From: a candidate division WOR-3 bacterium
GTDB taxonomy: Bacteria > SDB-A
Assembly: GCA_016926475.1 (NCBI GenBank)
Contig: JAFGON010000062.1
Coordinates: forward strand, 1 to 11,860
Direction: 5' to 3'
Length of the DNA: 11,860 bases
A program made the translations under genes and the position numbers. The notes beneath the pieces were generated by a model that saw only the letters and a list, made by a program, of their open reading frames with translations, searched no databases and was not told the origin of the DNA. Below are positions 1,393 to 10,143 of this stretch, one piece after another (the first letter of the stretch is position 1; each line of letters begins with the position of its first letter).

Positions 1393-2211
1393 GTGATTTT
1401 TTTCAAATACCAGGCTGCCGGCAACGACTACATACTAATCGACCTTCAGGGGCAAAATGCCGATGGAATGGTGCTTGACGAGACCGCAAGAAAATTTTGC
1501 GAGAGAAAAAAAGGAATTGGAGCCGACGGTCTGCTTGTTCTAAAAAGCTATCAAGAGTGTGATTTTTTTCTGAGCATCTACAACAGCGACGGGTCATTGG
1601 CACAGATGTGCGGCAACGGCTTGCGCTCAGCGGTTCTTTATTTCTACAAGAGAATAAAAAGAAGAAATAGCTTAAAGGTCCTCACCGATTCAGGTGTTAA
1701 AAATTGCAACGTCATTGACTTTGACGGTAAAAACTCAGCGCTTGTAAAGGTCTCTATAGCAAAACCCGATTTTGATTTCTTTGAAAGAGAAAGATTTTTT
1801 CCTCTGATGTTGAATTGCCCGGAAAAAAAACTCTTTTACTGCGTGTCCGTGGGAAATCCTCACGCTGTAGCTTTGGTCGAAAATGCAGAAAAGGCGGACC
1901 TCATCTCGCTTCACGACTGTGTCATGGAAAAAAAATATTTTCCGGACGGAATAAATGTTTCAGTTGTACAAACCATTGACAAAAATCTTTTTTTTCAGAG
2001 GGTTTTTGAGAGAGGAGCAGGCGAGACGCTTTCATGCGGAACCGGAGCGGCGGCTGCATACGCAGTTCTCAGAAAACTTGGGAAAATTGAAAAGAAAACA
2101 ACAGCGCGTCAAAAAGGCGGAGAGATTGCGCTTTCAGAAGAAGAAGACGGGGAAATAACCATAGAAGGCGTTGTACAGGAAGTCTTTCAAGGAGAAAGAG
2201 ATGAAATATAA
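1393..2211 (+). CDS. dapF: Diaminopimelate epimerase
   Basis: This 272-residue cytoplasmic enzyme interconverts LL- and meso-diaminopimelate. It is a PLP-independent racemase that acts in lysine synthesis and supplies the peptidoglycan cross-linking residue. The N-terminus FFKYQAAGNDYILID is the family opening. The two catalytic cysteines are present: Cys73 in SDGSLAQMCGNG and Cys215 in GAGETLSCGTG. GNPHAV precedes the second half. Length is typical. The start is GTG, which aligns with family N-termini and has GGGGAG six bases upstream. The last 11 bases overlap the next gene's start, so it heads a four-gene operon. No other lysine-pathway gene is nearby, so its co-expression with an ion-transport and signalling pair is unusual. 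Confidence 0.96.
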   Translation: MIFFKYQAAGNDYILIDLQGQNADGMVLDETARKFCERKKGIGADGLLVLKSYQECDFFLSIYNSDGSLAQMCGNGLRSAVLYFYKRIKRRNSLKVLTDSGVKNCNVIDFDGKNSALVKVSIAKPDFDFFERERFFPLMLNCPEKKLFYCVSVGNPHAVALVENAEKADLISLHDCVMEKKYFPDGINVSVVQTIDKNLFFQRVFERGAGETLSCGTGAAAAYAVLRKLGKIEKKTTARQKGGEIALSEEEDGEITIEGVVQEVFQGERDEI

Positions 2212-2938
2212 AATATTGGATCTAATTGTTTTTTTGGCGCTTTTTATTTCTTGCTCAAAAAAAGCAGATTTCAACGAACTCATAGATTCCGCAGGTTTTC
2301 ATCTTGAGAGGGTAAACAGGTTGAAGACAGGTTACGAAGATTCACAAGAGGTGAGAGAGCTTCTGGATAAAGCTCTCAAGGAAAGCGAAAAAGCGGTGGA
2401 GTTAAGACCCGAATCTCCTGAGGCAAACGGGCTTTACGCGAGAGCTCTTTACGCGTCGGGAAGAATTCAAGAAGCCTACGGGGCGTCTGTTGTCTGTCTT
2501 AGAGCTGATTCTCTCAACTCAAACGGTAACCTGGCGATGGGCAACGTCTTCAGAAGAACGGGAGACCTGGAAAAGGCAGAGTTCTATATTGAAAGGGCTG
2601 TACTCTCGGACTCGTCCGATCTCTATTTAAAATATTCCCTTGCCCTTTTGTACCAGGAGAGAAGAAAATTTTTCGACGCCGAAAGCATACTTGAAAACCT
2701 TCTTGATAAAGAACCCGATAATATTCGGTTTCTTTACTCTCTCGCGGCTGTAAACGAAGAACAAAGGGACCTCGTGAAAGCCGAAAGGCTTTTCAGAGAA
2801 CTCACGGAGAAGGAGCCGGAAAACCCTGACCTTTGGAGGTCCTACGCAATGCTGCTGGAAAAGGGCGGGGACACTGCAGGATCGAAAATACTTTATTTTA
2901 AAGCGGATTCCATTGAGTATTCATTGAACAATGAATAG
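2201..2938 (+). CDS. TPR-repeat lipoprotein
   Basis: This is a predicted 245-residue lipoprotein. The N-terminus MKYKILDLIVFLALFISC is a type II signal peptide with Cys18 as the lipidation site; Phe at -3 is slightly atypical. The rest is helical, with about five tetratricopeptide repeats of 34 residues from roughly residue 72 to 240. For example, the segments starting near 107, 141 and 175 share the A-x-x-Y/L and G-D/R-x-x-x-A pattern and end in PDN- or PEN-like turns. TPR lipoproteins usually act as envelope scaffolds, but no specific partner is evident. I chose the ATG at 2201 because AAGGAG ends six bases before it and it starts the signal peptide directly; a TTG thirty bases upstream would place charged residues before it. 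It overlaps dapF by 11 bases and the antiporter gene by 8. Confidence 0.85.
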   Translation: MKYKILDLIVFLALFISCSKKADFNELIDSAGFHLERVNRLKTGYEDSQEVRELLDKALKESEKAVELRPESPEANGLYARALYASGRIQEAYGASVVCLRADSLNSNGNLAMGNVFRRTGDLEKAEFYIERAVLSDSSDLYLKYSLALLYQERRKFFDAESILENLLDKEPDNIRFLYSLAAVNEEQRDLVKAERLFRELTEKEPENPDLWRSYAMLLEKGGDTAGSKILYFKADSIEYSLNNE

Positions 2939-4694
2939 TTACGGGCTTCACATACTGACGATCGGTCTTTTAATTCTCGCCGGCAACCTCGGGGGCAGAA
3001 TCGCAAGAAGGCTCAGAATAAGCGAGATAATTGGACAGATCATGGGTGGTATCGTGATCGGGCCCCTGGCGATTCTCGTTTTGAGGAACATTTCAGACGA
3101 TGTCGCGATAATTTATTCAAGGGAGTTTATCTCTTTTCAATTCGTAATTTTCGCCTTTCTTTCTCTAATAGCCTTTGGAATCGGAGAGGAACTCCACTTC
3201 ACGAGGCTGAAAAAGATTTTTAAGAGGGTTTTTTGGGTCTCTATAGCAAATGTGGCGCTCACATTCACTTTGGTTTTTCTGGCTTTTCTCTTCTACGGAA
3301 AAATCGTTCAAGAGTCGGGAATAGACCTTTTATTGTCTTTACTGATAGCGTCAATAGCGATCGCGCAGTCTCCGGCAATAATATTCGCAATAATGAACAG
3401 GTATGAAATAGAAGGAGATATAAGAAACATAATCGGAAACATCATGGCTATAGTTGACCTTTTCGCCATTTTTATATTTTCCGTTCTTATCCAAATCAAA
3501 ACTCAGACGGGAACCGATATCTCTGTTTTAAAAACGACCAAGGATATCGGTTTGGCTTTTTTGATTGGAATGGCAGCTTTCGTCTTTCTCTGGATTCTGA
3601 TACACGGCATAAGCAAAGATGAAAAAAAGAGAAAAGCGGATTTTTTCATGCTGAAACTTCTGACAGAACATCCTGCTCCGTCCATGGAAATGTTTCTTAC
3701 TGTCGCCGGAATCGTCACGGTGATAACAGGAATATCCATTTTACTGCATCTGCCTTTTCTCATCGCCGTCCTCGTAGCCGGAGCCTTGATAGCAAATTTT
3801 TCCGGTTCGCTTATTTTTGATTCAATGAAGATTGAAAACATAATGCCCGCTTTTAATCTGCTCTTTTTCGCTTTGATAGGAGCGGAAATAGATTTTAGCA
3901 AATTCAGCACTCCGATTCTTGTCCCGATTATGATATATGTTATCATAAGAGCTTTGAGTCAATACACAAGCGTAAAAATTGTTTTGAAAATTATGAAAAA
4001 TGAACCGAAAATTGTAAATTGCGTTCCTCCTCTAATGATCCCTCAAGATGGAGTAGCCGCTGTGGAAGCGGCTTTTCTTGTGAGTGTTCTCGGAAGCCCG
4101 GGACAGACAGTCGCGGACATTGTCATTCCGTCGCTCGTGATATTTTCCGTATTCGGAGTTTTTCTGACCGAAAGGTACATAAAAAAATGGCAGAACTGGG
4201 TAATCGGAGAAGCTGAGGTGGTCAAAGGAGAAAAAATTCTGCCGAAAAGACACCGTTTCAACAGGGACGATATAGCATACGTTGACCTAGAAGATGAAAA
4301 CGACAGAAAGGGAACGATAGAAGCCCTCGCGATAGAAGGCGAAAAAAGAGGCTTTTTCCCGGATAAAAACGCGGTGATAGACGCGTCCAACATAAGGGAG
4401 ACCCTGCAAGAGACAATCCTGATGGAAGGAATCGTTTTGCCTCACTGCAGACTGAGAGCCATGAAAAAACCCAAAATAGTTTTCGGGATTTCTTCAAAAG
4501 GCGTGATGTGGGGTAAAAAAGCCCACAGAGCAAACATCATCATTCTTTTGATTTCGCCCACCGTAATGCCTGAACTTCATTTGGGAGCCCTATCCTATAT
4601 AGCTTTCACTTGCAAAGAGACAATGGGATTCAAAGGAATGGGGCCGGAAGAAATCAAAAACGCTATGACCTCTCTTCCCGCGGTGGCAACATGA
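2931..4694 (+). CDS. CPA2-type cation:proton antiporter with C-terminal PTS EIIA-like domain
   Basis: This 587-residue inner-membrane protein has two parts. Residues about 5-420 are very hydrophobic, with roughly a dozen membrane segments, and match the Na+/H+ or K+/H+ exchanger (CPA2, Kef/NapA-like) fold. The family's S-P-A signature is at 146-149 (QSPA). A buried acidic residue, Asp176 in AIVDLF, sits where CPA proteins carry the ion-binding Asp; a single Asp rather than an Asn-Asp pair suggests electroneutral exchange (inference). After a charged linker, residues about 461-585 resemble the type-2 EIIA domain (fructose/mannitol/PtsN class): RETLQETIL, then GIVLPHCRL with His505 at the phospho-histidine position, then the HLGAL segment. 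No TrkA-N or TrkA-C domain is present. The start has no strong Shine-Dalgarno and overlaps the lipoprotein stop by 8 bases, implying translational coupling. The ion transported is not determinable here. Confidence 0.88.
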   Translation: MNSYGLHILTIGLLILAGNLGGRIARRLRISEIIGQIMGGIVIGPLAILVLRNISDDVAIIYSREFISFQFVIFAFLSLIAFGIGEELHFTRLKKIFKRVFWVSIANVALTFTLVFLAFLFYGKIVQESGIDLLLSLLIASIAIAQSPAIIFAIMNRYEIEGDIRNIIGNIMAIVDLFAIFIFSVLIQIKTQTGTDISVLKTTKDIGLAFLIGMAAFVFLWILIHGISKDEKKRKADFFMLKLLTEHPAPSMEMFLTVAGIVTVITGISILLHLPFLIAVLVAGALIANFSGSLIFDSMKIENIMPAFNLLFFALIGAEIDFSKFSTPILVPIMIYVIIRALSQYTSVKIVLKIMKNEPKIVNCVPPLMIPQDGVAAVEAAFLVSVLGSPGQTVADIVIPSLVIFSVFGVFLTERYIKKWQNWVIGEAEVVKGEKILPKRHRFNRDDIAYVDLEDENDRKGTIEALAIEGEKRGFFPDKNAVIDASNIRETLQETILMEGIVLPHCRLRAMKKPKIVFGISSKGVMWGKKAHRANIIILLISPTVMPELHLGALSYIAFTCKETMGFKGMGPEEIKNAMTSLPAVAT

Positions 4695-7600
4695 ACAATT
4701 TTTTACCAGTTTTCATTTCTGAAAAGTTCTCGAAAAACGAATTGAATGGGAAGACGAGAGGCTCGGCTCTTTTTGTAGACCTCGGCGGCTTCACTAAGAT
4801 GACTGAAATGTTCTTCAGAAAAGGGGATAAAGGCGCCGAGGAAATTTCAAAACAGCTCTTGTGGATTTTCGATTTGCCGGTAAAAGCTGTTCATGGCTAC
4901 AGAGGCCACATAACGACTTTTGCTGGAGATGCCTTCACGGCAATATTCCCTGAGGACGACGGATCCAGAGCGTATTCGGCGGCGTCTATTTTGACGGATT
5001 TTTTTCAAAGGGAAGGCAGAAGAAACACTGAAATCGGAGAACTGACATTCACATGTAAAAGCGGAGTGGGGCAGGGGGAAATCGAGTGGGAAATAATTGA
5101 ACTTGACAAAAAATTGAACACATACATTTTCACAGGATCCGCTATTGAAAACGCTCTGAAAGAAATCGAAGATACCGGAACTGGAAAAATTGGCTGGAGT
5201 GGTAAACGAGAAGTGGATGCAGGTGAACCTTTTCAAGATGCCTGGTCTATTCCCGATGATGTCGTTTTGAAATTTATACCTCAATCAATTCTGAACGCGT
5301 GGAATAAAAGCGAATTGAGACACGCGACGACTGTGTTTGTAAACCTGGTAAGACCTGAGAGGGGCAATACCAGCGAAGTCATCAGAAGTATATATAATAC
5401 CGCAGATGAATTCGGAGGGTATTTAAACAAAGTTGATTTCGGAGACAAAGGGACTCTCGCTCTGGTTCTTTTCGGGGCTCCTGAAGCGAGAGAGAACCCG
5501 GAGGATCTCGCTCTAAGGTTTTGCGTAAAATTGAAAAAACAGATTTCTTCTTTAAAAATCGGAGTCGACAGCGGTCTTGTTTACGCCGGCAGAACAGGCG
5601 GGTCGGAGAGGTTTGAGTGGACTTGTTTGGGAAACGTGGTCAACACTTCGGCGAGAATAATGAGTTCCTGTAAAGAAAACGAAATCCTCGTTTCGGATAG
5701 CGTAAAAAAAAGAGTTGAAAAAACCGCTGTATTTGTTCAAAGGGGAGAAGTGAAATTCAAGGGCAGATCGGAACCCGAAAAAATTTACGAAATCACGGGA
5801 TTGAAAAACGCCAAAATACTTTCTTTCAAATACAAAATGGTCGGAAGAAGAGATGAACTTAAAAAGCTCGAAGATTTCACAAACAAAATAACGGTTGAAA
5901 AGTCAAACGCGGGTGTCTGCTATATTTACGGAGACGCCGGAATAGGGAAGAGCAGACTTGTCTGGGAGCTTATCGAGAATTATAAAGCTCAGGGAGTCGA
6001 CATTTCTGTTATGCACCTTCAGTGCGATGAGACGGCAAGGTATCCATGGTTCCCTGTCTCGACTTGGCTTATCGATTTTTTGAATCCTGACAGGAGAGAT
6101 TTAACAACTAAAAATATTGCGCAAGAACTCGAAGGGCTTGGCATTTCAGGAGCGGCGAAAAAAGCATGGGCTATTTCCGATATAATTGGCGTTTCTCCGG
6201 GCGACAAAACCTACGAAGAACAGAACGAAGAAAGGAAAAAAGAAAGCCAGATATTTTCACTTAAGGAATTCGTGAAAGTCCTTTCAAAAAAATCACCCTT
6301 AATTGTATTTGTCGACGATCTTCACAGTATCGACGAGCTGACTCTCGAATGGCTTTCTGCGCTGACTAGAAATGTCCCGGATTATCCATTCGCAGTTGTC
6401 TGCACTTCCAGATTTGACGAAAAAGGAGGGAAACCGAGAATAAATCTCGACCGGAGAGTCAAAGAAATGGAAATTGTCCTCGGCTCTTTTGAGACGCCAG
6501 AACTGATTACGGACATGTTCAAAGGAATAACTGGGGAAGAACCTTCCAAACCGACAACAAATTATCTTCTCGACAACACCGGGGGTAATCCTTTTTTCCT
6601 CGAGCAGACAATAATTTTTTTGAAAGAAAGAGAGATGCTCACTGGTTCACCGATGACGATTGACGGTAAAATCGAAAGACTTCCGGATTCACTCAACGAC
6701 TTGCTGACGGCGAGACTTGATTCAATGGATTACGAATTGAGAGAGATAATAAAAAAAGCGGCGGTGATAGGAGAACGGTTCCTAGTTGAAATACTGCGCT
6801 GTATCATTGAGGAGAGTGTCAAAGACGAACTTGAATTTTTTCTCGACAAAGGCGAGCAAGGGCAAATCATCGCGAGAGAACTAAACTACGAAAATATATA
6901 TATGTTCAGACACGCCATGCTCAGAGAAGCGGCTTACCAGCTTTATCTGCCTTCAGAAAGAATGATTTTGCACGGTCAAATATTCGAGATAGCTCAAAAA
7001 ATTCTTTCGAGAGAAATTGAAATACACACAAAACTTCTTCTCGAGCAAGCAGAGAAAGCCGAACAGTGGTCTAAATGGGAAGAATACGCGAAAGACTACG
7101 TCAATATCATGCTTAAAAAAAACGCGAACAAAGAATCGCTGAGGATATGCGGAAAACTCGCCAAGTATTACGTGAAAATAGGTGACTATTTAAAATGGGC
7201 TGAAAACGAACTGATGACCGGAAAAATACTCAAAAAAACAGGACAGCTCAAGGAAGCCCACGATAAAATAGTAGGGGCTATAGAAAAATTCGGCAAGAAT
7301 CCAGACATTCTCGCTGAAGCCTACAATGAACTTGGCACGGTTTTTCTCAAAGACGGAGAATTCGACAAAGCACTCGCCAGTTTTGAAAGAGCGCTTGAGT
7401 ATTCAAAAATTATCGCGGGTCAAAAATTAGAAAGCAGAACTTTCGGAAATTTCGGAGTTCTTTACGCCACAAAAAAGAATTTCGAAAAAGCTCTTGAAAG
7501 CTATGAAAAAGCGAAGGAAATAGCCGTTGCAACAGGAGACAAAACTTCTGAAGCTCTCGCTATGTCGAACATCGGAGCGATATTGGCTCAGCAGAACAAA

Positions 7601-8293
7601 TACAAAGAAGCCGAGAAACACTTCGACAAGAGTTTTGAAATCGCCAGTGAAAACGGTTTAAGCGAAGAAAAAGCAGCCGCTCACATAAACCTGGGAAATC
7701 TTCAGGCGATAAAGGGAAGAATAGCGGATGCTGAAAAACACTTTGACGAAGCACTGAAAATATTCAGAGAATCCGGCACAAGAGAAGGTGAAGTTTATTG
7801 TCTTTACAACATAAGCGAGATGAAAAAACACGAGGACAAATTCAACGAAGCTCTGAAATACACCGTTGAGGCCATGGAAATCGCGAAGGAAATCGGAAGC
7901 ATAAGATGGGAAATAAAAGTCTTGGCTCAAACCGGGGATTTGAAATACAGAATGTCCGAACCCGAGGAAGCCTTGGAGTCTTTTATCGAGGCTCTGAAAC
8001 TTTGTGAATTAAGAGAAGATTTGGAGACGGAGACTGAAATATTGTTTGAAATCGCAAAACTCTACAAAAGGATAAACGATTTTTCTAAAAGTCACGACTA
8101 CCTAGAAAAAGCATTTACTCTCTCTGAGAGAATCCAGAATCCGGCTCTGAGAAGCGACATAGCTTATAACATAGCCTGCCTCTTCGCCGACTGCGGTTCT
8201 TTCAACAAAGCAGCCAAGTATCTCGATGTCGTGATGAAACTCGGAGATAAAGAAGGCAAAGTCAAACTTTTCAGGGAAAAATACGGTTATTAA
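4691..8293 (+). CDS. Soluble adenylyl cyclase-like protein: two cyclase domains, P-loop NTPase, TPRs
   Basis: This 1200-residue cytoplasmic protein has the domain order of mammalian sAC (ADCY10). Cyclase domain 1 (about 22-165) has the metal aspartates Asp30 (FVDLGGF) and Asp80 (TFAGDAF). Domain 2 (about 210-395) has Asn218 in place of a metal Asp. It keeps Lys247 (LNKVDF), Thr311 (EWTCLG), Asn318 and Arg322 (VNTSAR), which match the adenine-recognition and transition-state residues of class III cyclases. One composite ATP-to-cAMP site is therefore predicted. An AAA_16/STAND-like NTPase follows, with Walker A GDAGIGKS (414-421) and Walker B IVFVDD (538-543); FRHAMLREAAY near 740 is typical of cyclase-linked NTPases. 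Eight TPRs fill 875-1194. I chose the ATG at 4691 because it shares ATGA with the antiporter stop and leads straight into the cyclase fold; the open frame upstream lies inside the antiporter gene. GTP specificity or a purely regulatory role cannot be excluded. Confidence 0.9.
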   Translation: MNNFLPVFISEKFSKNELNGKTRGSALFVDLGGFTKMTEMFFRKGDKGAEEISKQLLWIFDLPVKAVHGYRGHITTFAGDAFTAIFPEDDGSRAYSAASILTDFFQREGRRNTEIGELTFTCKSGVGQGEIEWEIIELDKKLNTYIFTGSAIENALKEIEDTGTGKIGWSGKREVDAGEPFQDAWSIPDDVVLKFIPQSILNAWNKSELRHATTVFVNLVRPERGNTSEVIRSIYNTADEFGGYLNKVDFGDKGTLALVLFGAPEARENPEDLALRFCVKLKKQISSLKIGVDSGLVYAGRTGGSERFEWTCLGNVVNTSARIMSSCKENEILVSDSVKKRVEKTAVFVQRGEVKFKGRSEPEKIYEITGLKNAKILSFKYKMVGRRDELKKLEDFTNKITVEKSNAGVCYIYGDAGIGKSRLVWELIENYKAQGVDISVMHLQCDETARYPWFPVSTWLIDFLNPDRRDLTTKNIAQELEGLGISGAAKKAWAISDIIGVSPGDKTYEEQNEERKKESQIFSLKEFVKVLSKKSPLIVFVDDLHSIDELTLEWLSALTRNVPDYPFAVVCTSRFDEKGGKPRINLDRRVKEMEIVLGSFETPELITDMFKGITGEEPSKPTTNYLLDNTGGNPFFLEQTIIFLKEREMLTGSPMTIDGKIERLPDSLNDLLTARLDSMDYELREIIKKAAVIGERFLVEILRCIIEESVKDELEFFLDKGEQGQIIARELNYENIYMFRHAMLREAAYQLYLPSERMILHGQIFEIAQKILSREIEIHTKLLLEQAEKAEQWSKWEEYAKDYVNIMLKKNANKESLRICGKLAKYYVKIGDYLKWAENELMTGKILKKTGQLKEAHDKIVGAIEKFGKNPDILAEAYNELGTVFLKDGEFDKALASFERALEYSKIIAGQKLESRTFGNFGVLYATKKNFEKALESYEKAKEIAVATGDKTSEALAMSNIGAILAQQNKYKEAEKHFDKSFEIASENGLSEEKAAAHINLGNLQAIKGRIADAEKHFDEALKIFRESGTREGEVYCLYNISEMKKHEDKFNEALKYTVEAMEIAKEIGSIRWEIKVLAQTGDLKYRMSEPEEALESFIEALKLCELREDLETETEILFEIAKLYKRINDFSKSHDYLEKAFTLSERIQNPALRSDIAYNIACLFADCGSFNKAAKYLDVVMKLGDKEGKVKLFREKYGY
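7313..8272 (+). repeat. Eight tandem 40-residue TPRs (120-base period) in the cyclase gene
   Basis: Residues 875-1194 of the cyclase-like protein split into eight consecutive blocks of exactly 40 residues, with no insertion or deletion. Repeat openings include AEAYNELGTVF, ALAMSNIGAIL, AAAHINLGNLQ and SDIAYNIACLF. In each, a small residue (Ala or Ser) falls at position 20, followed by an aromatic-rich second helix. The 40-residue period is that of the TPR_12/LGN-like subclass, which usually forms superhelical protein-binding surfaces. Nucleotide identity between units is low, so this is an old protein repeat rather than recent DNA duplication. Confidence 0.85.
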
Positions 8294-9603: not shown

Positions 9604-10143
9604 ATGGTTATTATCGAATACTCCCGGAATTGGCCAAAACAGTTCAGCCTGATAAGAGTCGAACTTGAAAAGCATTTAAGCAACTTTGTAAGGATTGAGC
9701 ATATAGGAAGCACTTCGATTCCAGGGATGAAGGCAAAACCTGTTATCGATATCGATATCGAGATACGGGACATGAATATTTTTGAATTGACAAATAGCGA
9801 ACTCGGAAAAATCGGTTATTATCACAACGGGGATCAGGGAATACCCGGCAGGGAAGCATTCAAAAGAACAGGTGACGACAATCACCAGATTTTCGACAAT
9901 ATAGAGCATCACCTTTACATCTGCCCTTCAGATTCAGTTGAACTGAGCAATCATCTTCTGTTCAGGGATTATTTAAAAAAACACAGGGAATACGCGGACA
10001 GATACAACAGCATCAAACTTGAAATACTTTCAAAACATGGCGAAAAAAACCTTGAAAAGTACATCGAAGTGAAAGAAAACGAATACAGATGGTTTTTCAC
10101 GGAGGTCATCGAATTGAGTAGAAAGGGAAAAAAGAAAGCATGA
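9604..10143 (+). CDS. GrpB family protein (UPF0157, nucleotidyltransferase fold)
   Basis: This is a 179-residue cytoplasmic protein. The family signature is clear: HIGSTSIPGMKAKPVIDI (33-50), with Asp49 and Asp51 where nucleotidyltransferase-fold proteins carry metal-binding acids. It is followed by the G-x-x-G-x-x-G-R-E and HHLYICP segments typical of this group. Some GrpB proteins are fused to dephospho-CoA kinase, but this one stands alone at normal length. Its biochemical role is not established. I chose the ATG at 9604, seven bases after AAAGGA (9591-9596); an in-frame TTG at 9598 is too close to it. The stop shares ATGA with the next gene, so the two are probably co-translated. Confidence 0.88.
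   Translation: MVIIEYSRNWPKQFSLIRVELEKHLSNFVRIEHIGSTSIPGMKAKPVIDIDIEIRDMNIFELTNSELGKIGYYHNGDQGIPGREAFKRTGDDNHQIFDNIEHHLYICPSDSVELSNHLLFRDYLKKHREYADRYNSIKLEILSKHGEKNLEKYIEVKENEYRWFFTEVIELSRKGKKKA

Follow-up and report, generated by a model that had tools for sequence, protein, structure and literature searches.

Two probably separate regulators, a CPA2 antiporter with a PTS EIIA tail and a soluble adenylyl cyclase-type protein, encoded at the end of a dapF gene run in a candidate division WOR-3 bacterium

The stretch of DNA analyzed here (the window, 11,860 bases) is the entire contig C62 of a 2.15 Mb metagenome-assembled genome (G000), and its plus strand carries, in this order, dapF, a TPR lipoprotein gene, a CPA2 antiporter gene and a gene for a soluble adenylyl cyclase (sAC)-type protein, with an overlap at every junction (Table 1). 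The open reading frames and the ATGA shared by the antiporter stop and the cyclase start, from which the first-pass annotation had argued, were confirmed in the sequence. Comparison within the phylum covered four genomes, namely G000, two of the same genus (G001 and G002) and an outgroup of the same family (G003, record LKUE01, filed as Desulfuromonas sp. SDB), while genome-wide counts for G000 were drawn from searches and sequence stretches. Four-base start/stop overlaps were found in 18 of 91 same-strand neighbor pairs (about 20%, in 192 kb of G000), mostly between unrelated genes, and the ATGA overlap is an ordinary junction type in this genome. A further ATGA junction, at 10140-10143 of the window, joins a GrpB-family gene to the gene for a small putative lipoprotein. 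Promoter and terminator scans gave internal signals not clearly above those of shuffled sequence, no RNA families or tRNAs were found in the window, and the plasmid search returned no match.

Table 1. Features of the locus, with their positions in the window and the basis of each assignment.
Feature	Position	Strand	Basis and remarks
Diaminopimelate epimerase gene dapF, at the head of the run	1393..2211	+	Pfam DAP_epimerase 6.5e-46; same position in 4/4 phylum genomes
TPR lipoprotein gene, start ATG 2201	2201..2938	+	11-base overlap with dapF, 8-base overlap with antiporter gene
CPA2 cation:proton antiporter with C-terminal PTS EIIA, 587 aa	2931..4694	+	Pfam; AlphaFold; Foldseek
EIIA_2 domain, antiporter residues 455-563	4293..4619	+	Pfam PTS_EIIA_2 6e-14
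His505, predicted phosphorylated histidine, motif GIVLPHCRL	4443..4445	+	Aligned to PtsN active-site motif
ATGA junction	4691..4694	+	Cyclase ATG 4691-4693 overlaps antiporter TGA 4692-4694; retained in G001
sAC/ADCY10-type cyclase, 1200 aa from ATG 4691 (C1, C2, NTPase, TPR array)	4691..8293	+	Pfam Guanylate_cyc, AAA_16 and many TPRs; sequence; fold
C1 domain: metal aspartates D30, D80 (sAC D47, D99), K123 (K144)	4745..5170	+	Profile alignment to 4cm2, paralogue alignment
C2 domain: K247, T311, N318, R322 (sAC K334, T405, N412, R416)	5303..5803	+	Profile and paralogue alignments
AAA/STAND-type NTPase, Walker A GDAGIGKS	5837..6610	+	Pfam AAA_16 2.7e-18, ATPase_2 2.4e-8
TPR array	7178..8260	+	Pfam TPR_12 3.5e-49, 6 stretches

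The first 375 residues of the cyclase found human ADCY10 as their best PDB match by single sequence, and a profile of the C1-C2 region matched the same protein at 2.6e-50 across both domains. AlphaFold modeled C1-C2 with a pLDDT of 89.5, and the best 24 PDB fold matches were all human sAC (TM about 0.8). Together with the Pfam matches, these results bear out the C1-C2-NTPase-TPR order of ADCY10 that had been read from the translation. With human ADCY10 and the bacterial sAC-like cyclases the window protein shares the C1-C2 order and a single catalytic site; as in sAC, both metal aspartates lie in C1 and the Thr, Asn and Arg in C2, and a P-loop NTPase follows C2 together with a large C-terminal repeat region. 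Its core is about 20% identical to human sAC. Bacterial sAC-like cyclases bearing an NTPase were described earlier (Kobayashi, Buck and Levin, 2004, as cited in PMC6660944). With residue roles taken from PMC12867704 and PMC12250328, all seven sAC catalytic residues that were checked are conserved (Table 1), while in the profile and paralogue alignments both members of the bicarbonate-binding pair are replaced (sAC K95 by T76, R176 by L156). This pair is not universal in sAC, as the non-mammalian ApsAC and SssAC each differ from the human enzyme at one position. The idea that a change of Lys95 to Thr abolishes adenine binding was rejected, since Lys95 binds bicarbonate and Lys334 the ATP base (PMC12867704), and Lys334 is kept as K247. 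Judging from these residues, the protein is expected to be an adenylyl cyclase active without the human bicarbonate switch.

Residues 20-351 of the antiporter matched Na_H_Exchanger (Pfam, 1e-22). In the AlphaFold model of the protein (pLDDT 74.6), Foldseek returned NapA (4bwz) as best match, followed by other CPA antiporters, and the tail matched EIIA-Ntr structures (2a0j), which agrees with the Pfam domain and upholds the EIIA-like ending recognized in the first-pass annotation. The protein has the predicted fold, the Na_H_Exchanger domain and the invariant ion-site aspartate (Asp176) of the CPA2 members NapA and KefC, but its C-terminus is an EIIA domain, whereas NapA has none and KefC ends in an RCK domain; moreover, Val175 replaces the first residue of their DD/ND pair. 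Among 16 aligned CPA2-EIIA fusions, Asp176 is invariant and His505 nearly so, and the residue before Asp176 (DD/ND/QD motif) is Val or Ile in the clade of the window antiporter and Asp in most of the others. Transport activity is therefore not assured in this clade. The window protein shares the EIIA fold, the phospho-histidine motif and, presumably, the regulation of a transporter by a PTS domain with EIIA-Ntr (PtsN) and with transporters that carry a IIA tail, LacS among them; unlike these, it has its EIIA fused to a cation:proton antiporter. LacS is a sugar symporter bearing a glucose-type IIA. In other bacteria EIIA-Ntr is established as a regulator of K+ transport (PMC9239096; Lee et al., 2007, as cited there). 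In G003, a single in-frame TAA (L065 1243-1245) stands between the membrane part and the EIIA domain of the antiporter and reflects either a gene split in two or an error in the sequence.

Outside the phylum, an alignment-based scan of 84,980 species genomes recovered 14 more CPA2-EIIA fusions, one of them truncated by a contig end; the scan relies on two conserved peptides, and some members will be missed. A single-sequence scan of genome contigs gave no matches. The fusions (L072-L084, L086) are about 600 aa long and come from many candidate phyla, in records named Auribacterota, Omnitrophota, KSB1, Sumerlaeota, Zixibacteria, Spirochaetota and others. Their neighbors are mostly unrelated, and none of the 14 has a cyclase nearby within the available flanks (at most 8 kb, shorter at contig ends). 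EIIA domains were also found on a CitMHS transporter, a second antiporter-like protein and a permease-like protein. Our literature search found no description of an EIIA-antiporter fusion, nor, in titles and abstracts, of an antiporter-cyclase operon. EIIA-tailed CPA2 antiporters form a widespread and apparently undescribed family, in which the idea of a cation antiporter carrying its own PTS control can be tested.

HPr and EI, which would have to supply phosphate to such a tail, are present in G001, G002 and G003 within a conserved and intact tldD-HPr-EI-metK block ending in metK. Neither was found in the G000 assembly, which is rated 100% complete, and on this ground the fused EIIA could be a relic or scaffold without phosphotransfer in an organism having no EI or HPr. 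We consider this very unlikely: the same assembly also lacks metK and one other block gene, so that a gap in the assembly most likely accounts for the missing HPr and EI; the three relatives have the block intact; and His505 is conserved. The lack of these two further genes was also the reason for rejecting a loss of the PTS in G000. G001 holds two diverged copies of the block (L102 and L105, on contigs C57 and C23), possibly from a second strain in the bin. A search restricted to the glucose/fructose-type EIIC family PF02378 detected no member in any of the four phylum genomes, its controls having worked; since HPr and EI occur in three of them, the PTS looks regulatory, and the EIIA tails look like natural endpoints for it. 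With the histidine kept and the two phosphotransfer proteins encoded in the relatives, EIIA-type regulation of the antiporter is plausible.

The antiporter and cyclase genes are adjacent in two of the four phylum genomes, G000 and G001, whose cyclases are 68% identical, and in these two species they likely belong to one operon. The order in G001 is dapF, TPR gene, antiporter and cyclase, with an identical ATGA. In G002 it is dapF, TPR gene and cyclase, 56 bases between the latter two replacing the antiporter, no close copy of which was found elsewhere in that genome; because the G001 and G002 cyclases form the closest pair (75%), loss of the antiporter in G002 is the simplest account. In G003, dapF, the TPR gene and the antiporter are followed by a metal-dependent hydrolase gene and then by the contig end, and a fragment of the cyclase orthologue, with an identity of about 43%, was located on a different contig next to a thyX-like gene. 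The distance between the thyX-like gene and the cyclase is about 7 kb in G001 and 5 kb in G002; the G003 contigs end early, and its cyclase could lie slightly further on past the hydrolase. An N-terminal cyclase fragment of G003 (C318) was considered as the other part of this orthologue and rejected, being closer to other paralogues. From the gene orders of G002 and G003, the cyclase is therefore retained without the antiporter, and the antiporter has its older neighbors in dapF and the TPR gene. In all four genomes, the TPR gene follows dapF and precedes the antiporter or the cyclase. Conservation of the ATGA pairing thus extends to G001 but is broken by the missing antiporter in G002 and by the hydrolase in G003.

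The first-pass annotation had proposed that antiporter and cyclase may form one module, possibly one complex, joining PTS phosphorylation, cation/pH homeostasis and cAMP output, a bacterial analogue of the sperm exchanger SLC9C1 working with sAC, and had named rare adjacency of the homologues as an observation that would speak against it. The retention of the overlap in two species, the sAC-type catalytic core and the histidine kept in the EIIA domain are all in its favor, and EIIA-Glc controls adenylate cyclase in enterics. Rare adjacency was nonetheless largely borne out: the antiporter is missing from the G002 locus, in G003 the cyclase is not next to it, and none of the 14 fusions recovered outside the phylum has a cyclase in its available flanks. 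Both systems pair an exchanger-type protein with an sAC-type cyclase in the same cells, but SLC9C1 possesses a voltage sensor and a cyclic-nucleotide-binding domain (CNBD), neither of which was detected in the window antiporter by the Pfam scan (only Na_H_Exchanger and PTS_EIIA_2 matched); the cyclase has lost the bicarbonate residues; and, unlike SLC9C1 and sAC, the two genes are separate in G002 and non-adjacent in G003. The analogy is consequently weak, the comparative evidence does not support a joint module, and a single complex appears unlikely. If the two proteins do cooperate, they would represent a bacterial equivalent of the way in which sperm couple proton exchange to cAMP, although the comparative evidence makes a general rule unlikely.

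G000 encodes at least 11 further cyclase paralogues, about 12 cyclases overall, and none of the 10 paralogues examined with their neighbors lies beside an antiporter, the neighbors being unrelated. The adjacency and the ATGA carry little weight in view of the 14 cyclase-free fusions, the many paralogues, the other EIIA-tailed transporters and the frequency of such overlaps, and since the relatives carry each gene without the other alongside, we see two ordinary regulators sharing an operon and not one signaling machine. The locus is thus probably best explained as two separate regulators at the end of the dapF operon, a presumably PTS-gated CPA2 antiporter and one member of a paralogous set of about a dozen sAC-type cyclases. 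This reading is based on the domains found in the two proteins, on the retention of their catalytic and phosphate-accepting residues, on the predicted folds and on the order of the genes in relatives. The membrane part of the antiporter would exchange a monovalent cation for H+, phosphate would pass from EI through HPr to His505, and the fused EIIA, reporting phosphorylation of the regulatory PTS, may open or close the transporter through the charge state of the tail, by analogy with the action of EIIA-Ntr on potassium transporters or of the IIA tail on LacS. In the cyclase, the C1 and C2 halves would form a single ATP site, and the NTPase and TPR part is probably a sensor switching the putative cAMP synthesis on and off in response to a presumed ligand. 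CRP-like proteins would read the cAMP; five matches to cNMP-binding domains were found per genome, and these proteins are possible cAMP readers. Co-translation in the window species would give co-expression of antiporter and cyclase. Against two separate regulators stand the adjacency in two species, a second EIIA gene, which in congeners precedes another cyclase paralogue by two genes, the absence of HPr and EI from the window assembly, and the Val/Ile at the DD motif.

At that second locus, a standalone EIIA gene, a SPOR-domain gene and an sAC-type cyclase gene lie in series in G000 (L104 4291-6203, contig C39) and G002 (L115 4609-10017, contig C69), and very likely also in G001 (L114/L119), where one contig ends after the SPOR-domain gene and another starts with the cyclase. 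With about 7 EIIA domains, 12 cyclases and some 2,000 genes, the chance of two EIIA/cyclase neighborhoods within two genes is about 0.01, a rough and post hoc estimate based on approximate gene counts, for loci inherited together within one genus. The EIIA domains of this genus could regulate nearby sAC-type cyclases directly, in a class III parallel to the pairing of EIIA-Glc with CyaA, the transporter being incidental. The two independent neighborhoods speak for such a role, which we nevertheless hold improbable, as other EIIA domains sit on transporters with no cyclase nearby, most cyclase paralogues have no EIIA nearby, and the G002 locus retains its cyclase and has no EIIA. Equally doubtful is a broader scheme in which the EIIA domains of the phylum, one fused to the antiporter and one free, would act on neighboring sAC-type cyclases so that phosphotransfer sets class III cAMP output, ion exchange being controlled in the same step. 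The CPA2-EIIA fusions of many phyla, the regulatory PTS and the genus-conserved second EIIA/cyclase neighborhood are of continuing interest, in a small phylum whose genomes have each accumulated a dozen or more sAC-type cyclases. Two of these paralogues (L098 4027-8145 and L099 4795-8985) carry Glu at the position of sAC Lys95 and Ser at that of Thr405, unlike the window cyclase.
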